From: Verrucomicrobia bacterium ADurb.Bin070
GTDB lineage: Bacteria; Verrucomicrobiota; Kiritimatiellia; RFP12; UBA1067
Assembly (NCBI GenBank): GCA_002071025.1
Contig: MWEJ01000004.1
Span: 1 to 46,915, forward strand
Direction: 5' to 3'
Length of the DNA stretch: 46,915 nucleotides
Shown: one piece after another, positions 2,230-39,402 of the stretch
How the letters are laid out: the number at the start of each line of letters is the position of its first letter
Numbering within the stretch: position 1 is the first letter of the stretch
The notes under the pieces: model-generated
What the model saw: only the letters and a program-made list of their open reading frames with translations
Database searches by the model: none
Told to the model about the DNA's origin: nothing
Position numbers and translations under genes: made by a program

Positions 2230-5200
2230 ATGGCGGACAAAGGGGGATGGCTGTGTCTGATCGTGTCGGCGTGCGTGGCTGCGGTCGGGCATGCGGAGAT
2301 GACGTTCTTTGCGCATTCAGGCAAACTGAGCACCGTGGCGCTGATCGGGGACGGCAAGCAGGTGGGAACCGGCACGGTCGGCGCGGTCAACTCGATGGGC
2401 GACAAAAAATACGGGGACGCTTGGAACATCGAGTTTTCCGGCATGCTGGATGTCAAGACCGCAGGCGCCCATGAGTTCGCCGTCACGTCCGACGACGGCA
2501 GCGCGCTTTACGTTAACAGCCGTGAGGTGGTCATGAACGACGGCCTGCACGGGCCGGCCACCCGCAAGGGAAGCATCGACCTGCCGGTCGGCCAACACCA
2601 GGTCAATCTGCTCTATTTCAACAACAATGGCGGGCACGATCTCAAGGCGACGGTCAAGGCGCCGGGCGGACAGGCGGTCGACCTGGCGGGGGCCTGCACG
2701 CCCGGCAGCAAGCGGCAGGATATGGCGGCTTTGCGCGAAAAGGCGCGCCAGCGCGAGGCCGCCGAAGCGCAGAAAGCGCTTGTGTCGATCTCGTCGCCCG
2801 AGGCGCTGGTGCGTTCGATCCGGCACATTCTCAAGACCAAACCCCGTGCCTACAAGAACGGGCGCGAGTATCTCAAACAGGCCGAAGCGTTTGTGGTCAG
2901 CATGCCCGCGCTGCTGGAGCGCAGCGAAAAGGGCGACGCCGAGGCCGCGCGGGAACTCGCCGCTTTCAGCGATCTGAAAGTCAAGGCGCTGATCGCGGAT
3001 AATCCGTATGTTGATTTTGACGAGATGCTGGTCGTGCTGTCCGACAGGGTGGCGCTCAAAGCCAACTGGCTGGGCACGCACACGCTCGGCCCCAAGGGAT
3101 ATAAAAACAAAATCGCACGTGTCAACCTGCGCACAGGAGCGGTGGCTGACGTCTATGCGCCCAAGGACGGCGCGTATCTTGGTGAACTCGACGTGCATTA
3201 TGACGGCAACAAGCTGCTCTTCACGTCGACAGACACCAACAGCATGTTTCAGGTGATGGAAGCGGGGGTGGACGGAGGCAATGTCCGCCAGGTGTCCACG
3301 ATCGTCGGCCAGTACGTGCACAACTACGGAGGCGTCTATTTGCCGGACGAACGGATCGTCTTCAGTTCGACCGCGCCGATGATCGGCGTTCCGTGCATCG
3401 GCGGGTCGCGCACCGTGCCGAACCTCTATGTGATGGATGCCGACGGGGGCAACACGCGGCAGTTGACGTTTGAGCAGGATGCGGACTGGTATCCGACGGT
3501 CCGCGAGGACGGACAGATCATGTATCTGCGGTGGGAGTACACCGACATCATGCACTACTACTCGCGCATCATGATGACCATGAATCCGGATGGCAGCAAT
3601 CAGCGCGCCATCTACGGATCGCAGAGCCTGTGGCCGAACTCGATGTTCAACGCCCGGCCGATACCCGGCGCGGCCGGACAGTTCGTCGCCGTGGTCTCCG
3701 GGCATCACGGCACTGCGGCATCGGGCAAACTCACGATTTTCGACACCAACAAGGGCTACGCGCACGCCGACGGCGTGGTTCAGCACATTCCCGGTTACGG
3801 CAAGAAGGTGACGCATGTGACCGTGGACCAGCTCTATCCGACCGTCAAGAAAGAGCTGCTCGGCCAGTTCCCTGATTTGCAGAAGGATGTGGATAAGCTC
3901 GTTGCCGAGCAGATGCCGCCCGAGTCGCAAAAAGACAAGGATTATCATGAGTTGAACAACGATTTCTTCAACACGTGCTACCCCCGGCTGAAGCACATTT
4001 ATCCCGAAATGGCGCTCGACCTGGACACCCTGGTGGACGGCGTCTTCCCGCAGTTCATTCAGCCCTATCCGTTGAGCGCGAACTATTTCTTGGCGGTCGT
4101 CAAGCTCACCGGCCAGGGTTCGTGGGGCCTCTATCTGGTCGATACATTCGACAACATGGTGCCGATCGCGAATCCGGAGACCGGCGGATACCGCTATATG
4201 ATCGAGCCTTACCCGCTCAGGAAACGCGCCCGCCCGCCCGTCATCCCGAGTAAGGTGAACCTGCACGACAAAGAGGGGGTCTGTTACATCCAGAACGTCT
4301 ATCGCGGGCCGGGACTCAAAGGCATTCCAGAGGGGACGGTCGAAGCCTTGCGGGTCTTTACCTACGCATACGGCTACTACAACATCGGTAACCACCATCA
4401 TATCGGCGTCGAGAGCGGGTGGGACATCAAACGCCTGCTGGGCACCGTGAAGGTCGAGAAGGACGGTTCAGCGATGTTTCGCGTGCCGGCCAACACCACG
4501 ATCTCGCTGCAGCCGCTCGACAAGCAGGGGCGCGCCGTTCAGCTCTTCCGGAGCTGGCTGGTCGCCATGCCGGGCGAGAAGCTCTCGTGTATCGGCTGCC
4601 ACGAGCCGCCGACGGAGCCGCCGGTCACCAGCAAGACCATCGCGTCCGGCAAGCCGCCTCAGGCCATCACGCCGCACCGTGCGACGGTCGAGGGGTTCGC
4701 CTTTGAGATGGAGATCCAGCCGATCCTCGACGCCTACTGTATCCGCTGTCATGACGGCAGCGATCCCAAGAAGCCCGATTTCAAAAACAAAGCGCTGCTC
4801 GACACCAAACGCGCCGAGGAACGCTTCAGCCATTCTTACCACGCCTTCCACCGCTATTTCCGTCGTCCGGGACCTGAGAGCGCGGGCACGATGGGAATCC
4901 CCTATGAATTCCATGCCTCGACCTCGGAAGGCGTGCAGCTTCTGGAAAAAGGCCATTACGGGGTGAAGCTCGATGACGACTCGTGGCGGCGCCTCTACAC
5001 GTGGATTGATCTGAACGTGCCGTTCCACGGCAACTGGACATCAGTCTATTCGATGGACGCCGGGCGGCACACGTGGACCACCAACATCTCCGCGCATGCG
5101 GCGGCGCTGCGCGTGCGCTACGCCAACATCGACGATGACTGGGAAGCGGTCCCGGCCCAGCCCTATCCGGTCAAGCCCGCCCGTGAAAAAGGTGAGGAGC

Positions 5201-17149: not shown

Positions 17150-18121
17150 TCAGAAGGCGATGTCGAGGATCAGCGGCAGGTGGTCGGAGCCGATGGACGG
17201 TCCGAGCCTTCGAGCCACGACATGCACGTCGGGCGAGTGAAAGACATGGTCCAGCGGAATGCGCGCGACCGGCGGCAGGAAGGTCGGCCAGGTCGGTTGC
17301 AGGCAACGCCCGCTCGCGCTGTCGCGCAGGCCGCTTCCGGCCAGAAAGGCCTGGAAATGGTCGGACCACGGCGTGTTGTTGAAATCGCCGGTCACGATGC
17401 AAGGGCCTTTGATGCGGCGCACGCGTGACGCCAGCCGCTGTGTGTGCTGGTTGCGCCCGAGCCAGCGGGAGCGGTTGTAGGGGGCAAAGGGATGGGTCCC
17501 GATCACCGTGAGCGGACGCCCGTTGGCGGTCAGTCGTGACTGCGTCGAAGGTACGGCGTCGCGCACATCCAGATAGAAGATCTCCGCCGCGTGCGCATTC
17601 GTCCTGCAGTAGATCGCGGCCCCGAAGTTGTCCTCGCGCGGCACGGCGGCAAAAACAGGATAGTCGTTGGTTAAAACCGAGAGGTCGTTCAGCCAGCGGA
17701 GGTTGGTCTCTTGCAGCACGATCACGTCGGGCGCTTCACGGGCCACGAGGCTGAGCAGCGCGGCGGCGTCGCGGTTGCTGGTGAGAACGTTGGCCTGCAC
17801 GATGCGGATCTGAGCGGACGGAGCGTCAGCGGCGGGCGGCTGCCGGGGCGTGGCGGTCAGGCAGAGCAGCAGCACCGGCAGCGCGTTCACGGCGGCGAAC
17901 GTCGCGCCGGCCGCCGCGTGGTGCCAGTGGCGCGCCGCGAATTCGATGAGCACATAGAGCGCGAAGCAGCCGGCGAGCTGCAGCTTGAAATGCGTGAAAA
18001 GCTCCAGGAACCAGGCGTGCCGGCCGAAGAGTCCGGCCAGCGTGACGAGCACGCCGTACAAGGCGGCGCGCTCGGCAAGCCGGTGCAGGCGGGCGAACAG
18101 GTGGCGGGCCGCAGTGTTCAT
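17150..18121 (-). CDS. Membrane-anchored endonuclease/exonuclease/phosphatase family protein (323 aa)
   Basis: The first 90 residues hold two to three hydrophobic helices (AALYGVLVTLAGLFG, LAGCFALYVLIEFA, FAAVNALPVLLLCLTA). The rest is an EEP fold: IVQANVLTSN, VIVLQETN with the metal-binding Glu, GTHPFAP, the core GDFNNTPWSDHF, and SDHLPLILDI with the final Asp-His pair. Members cleave phosphodiesters in nucleic acids, sphingolipids or phosphoinositides; membrane-tethered ones of this layout are of unknown substrate. Its ATG overlaps the TGA of the M3 peptidase gene by four bases, so the two are translationally coupled. Confidence 0.85.
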   Translation of the reverse strand: MNTAARHLFARLHRLAERAALYGVLVTLAGLFGRHAWFLELFTHFKLQLAGCFALYVLIEFAARHWHHAAAGATFAAVNALPVLLLCLTATPRQPPAADAPSAQIRIVQANVLTSNRDAAALLSLVAREAPDVIVLQETNLRWLNDLSVLTNDYPVFAAVPREDNFGAAIYCRTNAHAAEIFYLDVRDAVPSTQSRLTANGRPLTVIGTHPFAPYNRSRWLGRNQHTQRLASRVRRIKGPCIVTGDFNNTPWSDHFQAFLAGSGLRDSASGRCLQPTWPTFLPPVARIPLDHVFHSPDVHVVARRLGPSIGSDHLPLILDIAF

Positions 18122-20190
18122 GAGGATGGCTGGAGTCCGCAGTGGCGCAGCAGCGCGTCGACCGTCGGGGCGCGTCCGCGGAAGCGCCGGTAGACGGCCA
18201 TCGGGTCTTCGCTGCCGCCCAGCGCCAGCAGGGTGTCGCGGAATCGTTGGCCGGTAGCACGAACCGCCGCGTCATCTGTCAGGCCGGCCTCTTCGAAGGC
18301 GGCGAAGGCGTCGGCCGAGAGCACTTCCGACCATTTGTAGCTGTAATAGCCGGCGGCATATCCGCCGCCGAAGATGTGCGTGAACGAGCAGAGGAAACGG
18401 TCTTCCGGCAGCAGGGGAGTCGGCAGATAGGCTGCGGCATTCAGGCGCTTGACGGCGTCGGCGTCCGGCCACTCCGGTCGCGGATAGCGCGCATAGAGAT
18501 CCATGTCGGTGGCCGCGAAAAAGAGCTGGCGGCACATTGCGGTGGCGGCGCGGTAGTTCTTGGCGGCGACGAGTTTGTCGAAAAGCGCGTCCGGCAGCGG
18601 TTCACCGGTTTCGGCATGGCGGCTGAGCCCCCTGAGCGTGGGACGGTCAAAGCACCAGTTCTCCATAAACTGGCTGGCGATTTCGATGGCGTCCCATTCA
18701 ATGCCGTTTACCCCGGAGGCGTCGGGCTCTTCCACCGTGGTCAGCATGTGCTGCAGCGCGTGGCCGAATTCGTGGAAGAGCGTGTTCACCTCTTGGAAGC
18801 GCATGACGGGCGGCTGGCCGCCGACCGGTACACTCTGGTTGCAGACCAGTACGGCCATGGGGAGTTGTAGCGTGCCGTCGGCGCGGCGGTCGCGCGTGCG
18901 GAAATCGTTCATCCACGCGCCGCCGCTCTTGGTCGCGGGGCGGCTGTAGGGATCGAGGTAGAAGCAGGCGCGTGGCGTGCCGTCGGCGTCTGCGACGCGG
19001 AAGAAGCGCACGTCGGGATGCCACACCGGTGCTTCGCCGTCCGCCGGGGTGATGGTGATGCTGAAGAGGCGTTCGGCCAGTTGGAAGAGACCCTCCAGCA
19101 CGCGCGGGAAGAGGAAGTAGCGGCTCAATTCCTCGTCGCTGTAGGCATAGATGTGTTCGCGCTGGCGCTCGGCCCAGAAGGCGGTATCCCACGGTTCCAG
19201 CGTCGCGCCGTCGAAACCCTGCGCACGGGCGAAGGCTAGCAGGTCATCAGCTTCGCGCAGTGCGGCGTCGCGCGCGGCGCCGGCCAGTTGCGCAATCAGG
19301 GCGTCGACGGTCTCGACCTTTCGCGCGGTTTTGTTGGAGAGGCTGAGTTCGGCATAGGAGGCGTAGCCGAGCAGGGCGGCCATCTCGCGGCGCAGCGAGA
19401 GGACCTGTTCGATGAGCGGGGTGTTGTCGAGATCGCCGCTCGCGGCGCGCGTGGCCGAGGCGCGGCAGAGCCGTTCGCGCGCGGCGCGGTTGCGGCTATG
19501 CATCATGAAGGGGGCGTAGACGGCGTGATCGAGCGTGATGCGCCAGGGGCCGGCCTCGGCCGTGGCCTGCGTCTCGCCGGCGTCGCGTGCGGCCTGCGCG
19601 GTGACGGCGAGCAGGGCGGGCGAAAGGCCGTCCGCCTCGTCGCGCGTACGCAGGGTGAGCGTGAAGGCCTTGGTCGCGTCCAACACATGGTTGCGGAAGT
19701 CGGTGGCGAGGCGTGCCAGCTCTGCCTGGACCTCGTTGAAACGCTGTTGCCGGGACTCGGGCAGGCCCACGCCCGCTTGTTCGGCGGCCTGGAGGGTCTT
19801 CTCCAGAATGCGGCGCTGAACCGGGGTCAGGCAGGGGACGTTGCGGTCGGCGTCGCGCAGCGCGCGGTAGCTCGCGTAAAACGCGCGGCTCTGGCCGACG
19901 CGCAGCGAAAAGGCGACGAGCGCAGGCTGGAGCGCCTCGTGGACGCGCCGCCAGGCGTCGCTGTTCATGACCGACAGCATGTGGCCAAGCAGGCCCCACG
20001 CGTCGAAGAGCGGGTGGCAGGCGTCATGCAGCGGACGCATCAGGCCGGTCCAGGTCGGCGTGTGTCCGCGCTCCAGAGCGTCGACGGCGCGGGTCGCATC
20101 GGCCAGCAGGCTTTCGAATGCGGTCGCGGCGTCCTCGGGCGTCATGCGGTCAAAGGCGGGATAGTAGGGGATGTTGAGGAAAGGGGACAT
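18118..20190 (-). CDS. M3-family zinc oligopeptidase (690 aa)
   Basis: The zinc motif HEFGH lies at residues 473-477 (NTLFHEFGHALQHM), with the third ligand expected in the following GIEWDAIEIASQFMENW segment. FGGGYAAGYYSYKWSE near the C-terminus is the signature of the PrlC/Dcp branch. These cytosolic enzymes cut short peptides, including degraded signal peptides. Length fits oligopeptidase A or dipeptidyl carboxypeptidase; the two cannot be separated by eye. The start is odd: the bases before ATG 20190 belong to a heptamer repeat tract and offer no Shine-Dalgarno sequence in the sense strand. No better internal ATG with a ribosome site was found. Confidence 0.9.
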   Translation of the reverse strand: MSPFLNIPYYPAFDRMTPEDAATAFESLLADATRAVDALERGHTPTWTGLMRPLHDACHPLFDAWGLLGHMLSVMNSDAWRRVHEALQPALVAFSLRVGQSRAFYASYRALRDADRNVPCLTPVQRRILEKTLQAAEQAGVGLPESRQQRFNEVQAELARLATDFRNHVLDATKAFTLTLRTRDEADGLSPALLAVTAQAARDAGETQATAEAGPWRITLDHAVYAPFMMHSRNRAARERLCRASATRAASGDLDNTPLIEQVLSLRREMAALLGYASYAELSLSNKTARKVETVDALIAQLAGAARDAALREADDLLAFARAQGFDGATLEPWDTAFWAERQREHIYAYSDEELSRYFLFPRVLEGLFQLAERLFSITITPADGEAPVWHPDVRFFRVADADGTPRACFYLDPYSRPATKSGGAWMNDFRTRDRRADGTLQLPMAVLVCNQSVPVGGQPPVMRFQEVNTLFHEFGHALQHMLTTVEEPDASGVNGIEWDAIEIASQFMENWCFDRPTLRGLSRHAETGEPLPDALFDKLVAAKNYRAATAMCRQLFFAATDMDLYARYPRPEWPDADAVKRLNAAAYLPTPLLPEDRFLCSFTHIFGGGYAAGYYSYKWSEVLSADAFAAFEEAGLTDDAAVRATGQRFRDTLLALGGSEDPMAVYRRFRGRAPTVDALLRHCGLQPSS

Positions 20191-20322
20191 GGCTGGGAAG
20201 TTGGAGTTAGGAGTTAGGAGTTAGGATTTAGGAGTTGGGAGGAAGGAGGAAGGAGAAAGGAGGAAGGAGGAAGGAGGAACGAGGAGGAAGGAGGTGGGAG
20301 GGGGGGAGGAGGGGAGGAGGGG
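20191..20322. repeat. Heptanucleotide-periodic purine tract (locus 1)
   Basis: The plus strand can be read in unbroken 7-base steps from 20191: one GGCTGGG, one AAGTTGG, three AGTTAGG, ATTTAGG, AGTTGGG, then AGGAAGG and near copies (AGAAAGG, AGGAACG, AGGAGGA, AGGAGGT) to about 20295. An irregular G/A-rich stretch follows to 20322. It fills the whole gap between the TPR gene stop and the M3 peptidase start; the TPR C-terminus PPPAS is encoded by what looks like the same composition. The strand bias (nearly all purine on plus) could allow triplex or G-quadruplex structures. Confidence 0.85.
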
Positions 20323-21813
20323 TTAAGAGGCGGGAGGGGGAAAGGCGTTGTGATCGCGCAATTTTTTTTCAACGGCTGGGTCGGGCTGTAAGCGGTGGCT
20401 GCGTGTCCAGAAAAGGATCGCCTCGCTGCCGCGACCGATGGCCTTGAGGACATCGCCGGCATGGTCGAAAATCTCGGGCTCCTCTTTGTCAAGTTCAGCC
20501 GCTTTGAGCAGCCATTGCAGCGCCTCGTAGGTGCGTCCGAGCCGGTAAAGGATCCAACCTTTGGTGTCGAGGTATGCGGCGTTTTCGGGCTGCTGGCGCA
20601 GGGCGTCGGTTACCAGTCGGTCGGCCTCGTCCAGGCGCGTGCCGGCTTCGGCCCAATGGTAGGCGAGAAAGTTCTTGAGTTCGTGCGAGTGCGGATAAGC
20701 GGCGAGGGCGTCCAGAAGGATGTGCTCGGCCGCCTGCTCGCGCTGCGCGGCTTCAAGCAGCGCAGCGTGCCAGAGATAGACACTCTCGCTGGGGAAATAC
20801 CCGAGGCGCATGCGTTGCGCGTACGCCTGGCTGAGGGTGTCGGCTGCGGCTTCCGCCTGGTCGAGCGCCTGGTAGGTGGCGGCCAAGATGAGTCGGTCTG
20901 CGTAGGCGCCGTCGGGGTCCGCTTGAATGCGCCGGGCCAGCCGGTGGGTGGCGTCCGGGCGCGCCGCCCAGAGCGCGCCGAGCCGCAAGATGGCCGTGTT
21001 CACCTCGGGATTCAGGCGGTAGGCGTCGAGCAGGACCGTTTCCGCCGTGTTGGTCTGCCCCAGAAGCAGCCGGTTCTCGGCCGCGAGGGTCAGAAGCGCG
21101 GCGCGTTCGGCCGCGTTGGTGCGAAGCGGCAGGGCCAGATCGAGGCAGGAGAGAGCGCGCGCGGCGGTCTGCGGGCCTTCGCGCGTGAAGTGGATCGCCC
21201 ACTGCACCGGCACGGCGGCGCTCTTGGCATCGTTGAAACGGGTTTGCAGGTCACGCATGACGCGCAGGGCTTCCGCGTCGCGGTCTGACTGGAAGAGGAG
21301 CCGGATCAGCGCATGGCCCAGTTCGCGCTCATCGGGACGCAGCGCGAAGAGTGCCGCGCAATGGCGCGCGGCGTCGTCCGTACGTTCGCTGGCTTCTGCC
21401 AGGCGCGCCGCTTCAAAACGCAGTTCAACCTCTTCGGGATGGCGCGTCAGAAAAGGTTCCAGGGCGCTCAAAGCTTCTTCGAAACGCGCGTTGTCCGCCA
21501 GCGCGCTGATGAGCGCTTCCAGCGGGCGGCGGTTGTCGGGATCCAACGCGACGGCTTGACGAAAGGCTTCGCAGGCTGCCTGCCGGTTCACGTTGGTGTC
21601 GCCCTGCGTGCTGCTCTCCAGCAGGATGCCCTTGGCATAGAGCGCCAATGCCCCGGCCTGACGCGCATCGCGTTCCGGCAAGGCGAATACCGCCGGGCGT
21701 GCGGGCGTCCGGGGAAAACGACACCCGCACACCAACACGAGGCCAAACACAAAAAAAACAACAGAGGCCGATCCGATCGGCCGGTTAAACGCGGCGCATC
21801 GAATCGGTCTCAT
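20323..21813 (-). CDS. TPR-repeat lipoprotein (496 aa)
   Basis: The N-terminus has a hydrophobic core and an LVCGC lipobox-like site near residue 31, so it is probably lipidated and placed in the periplasm or outer membrane. The rest is a helical solenoid of tetratricopeptide repeats, with clear units such as ACEAFRQAVALDPDN, NAAYLDTKGWILYRLGRTYE and ALQWLLKAAELDKEEPE. Such proteins act as assembly scaffolds; no specific partner is evident. GGGAG lies close before ATG 21813. Downstream genes (M3 peptidase, EEP protein) follow on the same strand after the heptamer tract. A hairpin at 21885-21909 separates it from the bS22-like gene. Confidence 0.85.
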   Translation of the reverse strand: MRPIRCAAFNRPIGSASVVFFVFGLVLVCGCRFPRTPARPAVFALPERDARQAGALALYAKGILLESSTQGDTNVNRQAACEAFRQAVALDPDNRRPLEALISALADNARFEEALSALEPFLTRHPEEVELRFEAARLAEASERTDDAARHCAALFALRPDERELGHALIRLLFQSDRDAEALRVMRDLQTRFNDAKSAAVPVQWAIHFTREGPQTAARALSCLDLALPLRTNAAERAALLTLAAENRLLLGQTNTAETVLLDAYRLNPEVNTAILRLGALWAARPDATHRLARRIQADPDGAYADRLILAATYQALDQAEAAADTLSQAYAQRMRLGYFPSESVYLWHAALLEAAQREQAAEHILLDALAAYPHSHELKNFLAYHWAEAGTRLDEADRLVTDALRQQPENAAYLDTKGWILYRLGRTYEALQWLLKAAELDKEEPEIFDHAGDVLKAIGRGSEAILFWTRSHRLQPDPAVEKKLRDHNAFPPPAS

Positions 21814-26614: not shown

Positions 26615-26705
26615 TTTCAGGTTTTGGATTGGGCGTTAAAAGTTGAACGTTGGGCGTTCCTCCCTCCTCCCTCATCCCTCATCCTTCCTCCTTCCTCCTT
26701 CTCTC
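26615..26705. repeat. Heptanucleotide-periodic tract (locus 2)
   Basis: The plus strand reads in 7-base steps: TTTCAGG, TTTTGGA, TTGGGCG, TTAAAAG, TTGAACG, TTGGGCG, TTCCTCC, CTCCTCC, two CTCATCC, two TTCCTCC, TTCTCTC. Every step begins with TT or CT. It fills the gap between two convergent genes, and its last bases overlap the stop codon of the glycosyltransferase. The sense relative to the neighbouring genes is opposite to locus 1: here plus is pyrimidine-rich. Confidence 0.8.
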
Positions 26706-39360: not shown

Positions 39361-39402
39361 AAAGTGGAGTTAGAAGTTAGGAATTAGGAGTTGTGATTTG
39401 AC
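39361..39402. repeat. Heptanucleotide-periodic tract (locus 3)
   Basis: In 7-base steps on the plus strand: AAAGTGG, AGTTAGA, AGTTAGG, AATTAGG, AGTTGTG, ATTTGAC. Its AGTTAGG core is identical to that of the tract at 20191. It lies between the aceF stop and the lpdA start, and in the sense strand it is C/T-rich with almost no G. Confidence 0.75.

Follow-up and report, generated by a model that had tools for sequence, protein, structure and literature searches.

A heptad repeat tract between an M3 peptidase gene and a TPR gene in a Verrucomicrobia genome, probably a solo arm of an intergenic IVP-type cassette

Heptanucleotide intergenic tandem repeats (STRR) are present in many copies in filamentous cyanobacteria. 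REP/REPIN and MITE-like elements are likewise dispersed and intergenic, have inverted ends, and include small gene-carrying versions beside gene-less ones. The intergenic heptads of cyanobacteria, sulfur bacteria and others have no agreed origin so far, and no function is known for the IVP/S23 proteins, to which thousands of 'four helix bundle protein' annotations belong. Direct TAACTGA repeats occur in Beggiatoaceae, Cyanobacteria and some Bacteroidetes, mostly in forward orientation just upstream of start codons, and translational regulation has been proposed for them (MacGregor 2015, PMC4679880). In Coxiella, the 23S rRNA intervening sequence (IVS) has a 28-bp terminal stem that is cut by RNase III and, before the S23 ORF, GACAGAT heptads whose number differs between strains (PMC4990558). 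Four-helix-bundle or S23 proteins are not mentioned in MacGregor 2015 (PMC4679880), and we found no paper linking heptad repeats with IVP/S23 genes; few subscription journals were covered, so that novelty is provisional.

The window analyzed here, i.e. the whole stretch of 46,915 nucleotides from Verrucomicrobia bacterium ADurb.Bin070, forms contig C4 in a genome of 4.44 Mb and 856 contigs. It contains a heptad tract whose likeness to the cyanobacterial STRR in another lineage had been proposed from the sequence, and this likeness held: intergenic tandem heptads are present in many copies (21 two-unit matches, with more unit families in 750 kb), although the units are different and the lineage is not cyanobacterial (judged by the M3 peptidase, the nearest named relatives are Kiritimatiellae MAGs). 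With the TAACTGA repeats, the heptads share an intergenic position, many occurrences per genome, frequent location by start codons without a Shine-Dalgarno sequence (SD), a distribution across phyla and 7-nt indels (PMC4679880); however, the unit here is TAACTCC, and start codons are not preferred over stop codons (31 vs 32 arrays within 40 bp). The resemblance to REP/REPIN and MITE-like elements lies in dispersal, intergenic site, inverted ends and the coexistence of gene-carrying and gene-less forms, whereas tandem-heptad ends that vary by cassette, with no RAYT or other transposase found and no target-site duplication seen, set the present sequences apart. What is shared with the 23S rRNA IVS that carries an S23/IVP ORF (Coxiella, Leptospira; PF05635) is the protein family inside complementary, stem-forming ends. 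In contrast to that IVS, all cassettes examined here, as well as the window tract, lie between or inside protein genes and not within 23S rRNA helices; the cassettes are present in many copies, have heptad arrays as both arms and also occur in ORF-less and one-armed versions, and the window tract itself has neither an ORF nor a stem.

The tract in the M3-TPR gap

A 132-nt gap (20191-20322) separates the gene for a Peptidase family M3 protein (18118-20190, minus strand, 690 aa; PF01432, E 9e-132), which is downstream of the array in the mRNA sense, from the gene for a TPR protein with a lipoprotein-like N-terminus upstream of it (20323-21813, minus strand; TPR Pfam matches, ORF list). Self-identity of the gap was 0.76 at lag 7, 0.72 at lag 14 and 0.69 at lag 21, and in 2000 dinucleotide-preserving shuffles the best value at lags 4-24 did not exceed 0.60, with none reaching 0.76. 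The tract, which was also detected by TRF, is real and far above chance, and the autocorrelation peak at 7 that the original prediction had proposed as a check is present.

The extent of the tract was smaller than first described. Instead of about 15 consecutive heptad steps starting directly at the start codon and reaching the TPR stop codon, we counted 12 in-phase heptads (20196-20279), the first lying 5 nt and the first exact GGAGTTA 12 nt from the M3 start codon. On the plus strand, the units from 20196 onward are GGAAGTT, three copies of GGAGTTA, GGATTTA and GGAGTTG, and then GGAGGAA-type heptads up to 20279. Six of them form a TAACTCC block (20196-20237, minus strand; GGAGTTA on plus) that adjoins the M3 start codon and shows a 7-nt polymorphism between relatives. 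The unit changes from GGAGTTA at 20203-20237 to GGAGGAA at 20238-20279, where six more heptads form a TTCCTCC block (minus strand) in the same phase. Phase is lost at 20280, where a slip (CGAGG) is followed by one or two further AGGAAGG-like units (20280-20301, minus strand), and the remainder (20302-20322) is G-rich, non-heptad, with a period near 8, and also varies in length relative to L022. Because of the phase slip and the G-rich last 21 nt, the heptads stop short of the TPR stop codon.

In the mRNA sense, the units read TAACTCC, with TAAATCC variants, and TTCCTCC, and the whole is a C/U/A tract without SD and with a predicted folding energy of 0 kcal/mol, in agreement with the SD-less, pyrimidine-type leader that had been described. 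Of 451 predicted genes, just 206 had an SD-like 4-mer, and thus SD-less leaders are ordinary and even the majority in this genome. The ORF list contains no ORF between the M3 and TPR genes, and no inverted partner of the window tract was found.

Copies, length variation and orientation of arrays

The two-unit pattern AGTTAGGAGTTAGG had 21 matches in the genome and the reversed control had none, so the genome search proposed earlier did return further copies. Each of four congeners contained 15-23 matches of this type, which were absent in most other genera of the family or order, the exceptions being G015 (65) and G031 (27). In a 750-kb sample of the own genome, 12 arrays were detected at lag 7 compared with 0-5 at lags 5, 6 and 8-13, and several unit families were present (TTCCTCC, TAACTCC, GTTGAGC, TTTCCAG and TTGCCGA). 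Two more heptad arrays lie in the window: a TTCCTCC array between convergent genes (26655-26702) and a TAACTCC-family array 8-10 bp upstream of a start codon (39364-39393, minus strand), whose G001 orthologue, L183, has more units. To the left of the TTCCTCC array, at 26625-26665, there is a second possible heptad series, GGGCGTT-AAAAGTT-GAACGTT-GGGCGTT. An Rfam search of six loci at gathering cut-offs returned tRNA only.

The comparison of tract lengths, another check proposed at the outset, showed that the window and G002 differ at the M3 locus by exactly one 7-nt unit, and the same is true of L023 and L024. Arrays may gain or lose whole 7-nt units in this way, and slippage is the likely source of the change. 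The M3 gap of L025 (G015) holds both opposed arms, GGATTTA...TAAATCC, and no array was present in the M3 gap of L026 or L027.

The sequence used for the orientation analysis amounted to ~750 kb from the own genome, 202 kb from congeners and 312 kb from G015, the latter two having been picked because they bear arrays, which biases frequency but not orientation. A simple codon-usage script supplied the gene calls in these stretches, so that start positions are approximate. When TAACTCC-family arrays were counted up to a distance of 40 bp from a gene edge, 31 were at start edges and 32 at stop edges. In 33 of the 37 cases with a clear nearer edge (p 1e-6), GGAGTTA ran from the gene edge into the gap and TAACTCC from the gap toward the gene, the ratios for start and stop edges being 16:1 and 17:3, respectively; array orientation is therefore set by the side of the gap and not by the sense of the gene. 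When two opposed TAACTCC arrays were no more than 600 bp apart, all 16 pairs had the order GGAGTTA...TAACTCC and none the reverse (p 3e-5, no gene calls used). The window tract obeys the same rule, with GGAGTTA on the plus strand at the left edge of the gap. This is what the inward-oriented ends of an insert look like, unlike a translation signal.

IVP genes and their flanking arrays

Such arrays are better explained by a cassette that, when complete, consists of a purine-rich heptad array, an ORF of ~120-140 aa for a four-helix bundle (IVP/S23) and an inverted array. The ORF belongs to the 23S rRNA-intervening-sequence/four-helix-bundle family (PF05635, TIGR02436). One opposed pair in G015 encloses an ORF of this kind (L153:10086-10550; PF05635, structure relative 2rld), and for this complete cassette, folding predicts a ~21-bp closing stem (z -2.25). 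In the own genome, the L197 protein matches PF05635 (E 1e-24) and also PDB 2rld. The genome's own TAACTCC cassette (L235) has the 5' arm GGAGGAAGGAGAAGGGAGGAGTTA and the 3' arm CTCCTTTCTCC...TAACTCCTAACTCC, and in the latter (about 4918-4965) a TTCCTCC-type block is followed by TAACTCC units, i.e. the block order of the window tract. A Nostoc example (C052) reads AATTCGTAATTCGTAATTCG - ORF - TTACGAATTACGAATTACGAA.

A survey of the IVP family in ten genomes and across the phylum revealed heptads, or 8-9-mers, beside the genes. Among 107 distinct IVP genes, a heptad array was present on at least one side in 67 and on both sides in 38, and 8-mers shared by the two flanks were inverted in 93 and direct in 33. 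Period-8 arrays flanked 13 of these genes on at least one side and 5 on both, and none was flanked on both sides at periods 5, 6, 10 or 11. In contrast, none of the 419 control genes of the own genome had heptads on both sides; among its genes with gaps on both sides, inverted 8-mers were found in 21 of 170 and two-sided heptads in none. The IVP genes of sixteen plasmid loci from cultured or enriched organisms (Nostoc, Anabaena, Dolichospermum, Planktothrix, Pseudanabaena, Euhalothece, Bernardetia, Treponema and Chlorohelix) nearly all had flanking heptads, mostly inverted, and the other genes of three of the IVP-bearing cyanobacterial plasmids had none on both sides (0/130). Some IVP genes are exceptions in which the units measure 8 or 9 nt or the flanks carry a simple inverted repeat, and a few (L205, L207) are enclosed by direct rather than inverted array pairs.

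As to arm polarity, more than half purine was observed in 47 of 60 5' arms and in 47 of 60 reverse-complemented 3' arms from 67 IVP cassettes. For genes of the GxxExxY type (TIGR04256; loci L269-L288 and L293), the two flanks shared inverted repeats in 20 of 20 loci, with units of 8 or 9 nt. In the own genome, a degenerate GxxExxY ORF with CACAGATG-type octads (L235:1024-1322) occupies a gap that holds an IVP cassette in G004.

Similarity among IVP proteins correlated with similarity among their units in gene-relative orientation (Mantel rho 0.27, p 2e-4 for 34 genes; rho 0.22, p 0.001 for 67 genes), and the reverse-complement control was lower (0.06 and 0.12, respectively). The GGAGTTA/TAACTCC unit is tied to one IVP clade (own L197, L203 of G002, L212 of G015 and L219 of G031). 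Of 61 related genomes, the only ones with a protein at least 60% identical to the TAACTCC-associated IVP were G000, G002, G015 and G031, all of which are array-rich, and the same-genus partners G028 (3 array matches) and G018 (0) are without this clade. G001, G003 and G004 have arrays but no detected cognate IVP, their MAGs being 56-90% complete. In distant array-bearing genomes the expected cognate IVP was only weakly borne out (p 0.03); G143 and G203 did not conform, and the IVP genes concerned were without TAACTCC arms. An IVP protein might recognize its unit.

Cassette placement and origin of the window tract

Cassette positions differ between close relatives. In the MoxR/VWA operon, the IVP cassette is in gap 3 in the own genome, in gap 2 in G002 and in gap 1 in G004, and gap 2 of the own genome holds an ORF-less version with both arms. 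Comparison of L104 with L123 revealed an insert of array, core and inverted array in G001 and a short spacer in the own genome. Nostoc cassettes were found to separate cas2 from cas1, which in a relative are 2 bp apart. In Nostoc N6 and ATCC 53789, a cassette sits within a DNA cytosine methylase gene, part of which it replaces; three other plasmids carry this gene intact. In N6, ~300 bp of the methylase gene are replaced, and a CAATTCG match is present at the junction in the intact gene (a single case). The host sites of IVP cassettes (L302, L307, L310, L308, L309) include cas2-cas1 in Nostoc and Anabaena, the DISARM methylase-helicase junction in Planktothrix and the inside of the DNA cytosine methylase gene in Nostoc. 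We infer that cassettes have been copied or moved; no transposase, target-site duplication or movement was seen in them. A reverse transcriptase was considered as the mover, but RVT_1 was found in G000 and not in the array-rich G002, G015 or G031 (incomplete MAGs), and therefore does not represent a shared mobility factor.

Taken together, the window tract is probably a solo arm of this small intergenic IVP-type cassette family. As neither a partner nor an ORF accompanies it, a single arm of the 3' type is the best reading. The composite GGAGGAA and GGAGTTA units have the order found in L235, the orientation is as predicted, and the second arm is present in the G015 gap (L025). On the other hand, the missing partner and ORF count against the cassette explanation, as does the fact that, at the threshold used, no more than about two thirds of IVP genes have heptads on one or both sides. 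Once transcribed, the two arrays of a cassette would base-pair to form a long stem that encloses the ORF in its loop, an arrangement known from the 23S rRNA IVS. ORF-less versions (array, short core and inverted array) and single arms are scattered through the gaps of cassette-bearing genomes, and at the M3 locus one composite arm, with TTCCTCC and TAACTCC blocks, would have been left before the start codon.

Three other explanations were weighed against the solo arm. The original prediction had suggested that repeat copy number tunes translation of the peptidase, and a cis-acting tract of this kind, as proposed for the TAACTGA repeats of Beggiatoaceae, would suit a position 5-12 nt from the start codon in place of an SD, the lack of structure and the variation by whole units; translational regulation has been put forward for similar repeats (MacGregor 2015, PMC4679880). 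However, this suggestion is unsupported because stop codons have arrays as often as start codons do, with equally regular orientation, and the orientation follows the side of the gap. Moreover, arrays are also present where genes converge (window 26655), most starts in the genome have no SD and the genes behind the arrays are unrelated. We consider tuning unlikely; an effect on M3 expression is possible as a by-product, and nothing points to selection for such an effect.

It also seems quite unlikely that neutral slippage alone generated the heptads de novo from chance 7-nt repeats, with spread in the absence of any element (polymerase-slippage model cited in PMC4679880). Length changes of exactly 7 nt, several unrelated units in one genome and the observation that, of the long repeats in many bacteria, heptads are the most frequent (as cited in PMC4679880) agree with such a model, but the 16:0 order of opposed pairs, the flanking of IVP genes (38/107 vs 0/419) and the unit-protein correlation are left unexplained, and the pair orientation and the IVP association contradict slippage as a complete account. 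That the inverted arrays are terminators, attenuators or RNase III sites, i.e. host RNA-processing stems merely tolerated by IVP genes, might be suggested by the closing stem predicted for the complete cassette and by RNase III cutting of the Coxiella IVS stem (PMC4990558). We regard this as very unlikely: the majority of arrays are lone arms that have no stem, IVP clades have different units, and cassette position differs between sister genomes.

The association of heptads with IVP genes provides a shared framework for both, in which arrays would be the arms of IVP cassettes, each protein clade would have its cognate unit, and a single arm in a leader would be a remnant and not a regulator. 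The heptads of the Nostoc plasmids beside IVP genes are cassette arms, which suggests a common origin with STRR. A broader and rather doubtful extension is that the heptads dispersed in genomes of many bacterial phyla represent arms of mobile cassettes of a class not yet described, which have no recognizable transposase and whose IVP protein might recognize its own 7-nt (sometimes 8-nt) unit and help to build or copy arrays at new sites, single arms and ORF-less copies being non-autonomous offspring. Nostoc is cultured, and its plasmids hold complete cassettes and matching empty sites, which makes the system testable.

Several minor observations were made at array-bearing loci. GAGCCGTNAGGCACTAA, considered as a cassette end, had no match in the own genome at up to one mismatch and is found beside some arrays in relatives, so it is not general; the gap between L118 and L176 proved to be missing coding sequence and not an element. 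An interspersed motif of ~50 nt, AAAACAACTTGTTTTTTATYG...GAGCCGTAAGGCACTAA, is present in gaps of several family members (L023:203, L149:1908, L150 (rc 8695), L158:3595, L288 (rc 2891) and L125:5490-5535), sometimes abutting heptad arrays, with a variant in the own genome. Finally, IVP genes of Nostoc plasmids (L303, L304) neighbour xisH/xisI and a site-specific integrase gene, and xisH/xisI had been noted in genomes with TAACTGA repeats (MacGregor, PMC4679880).
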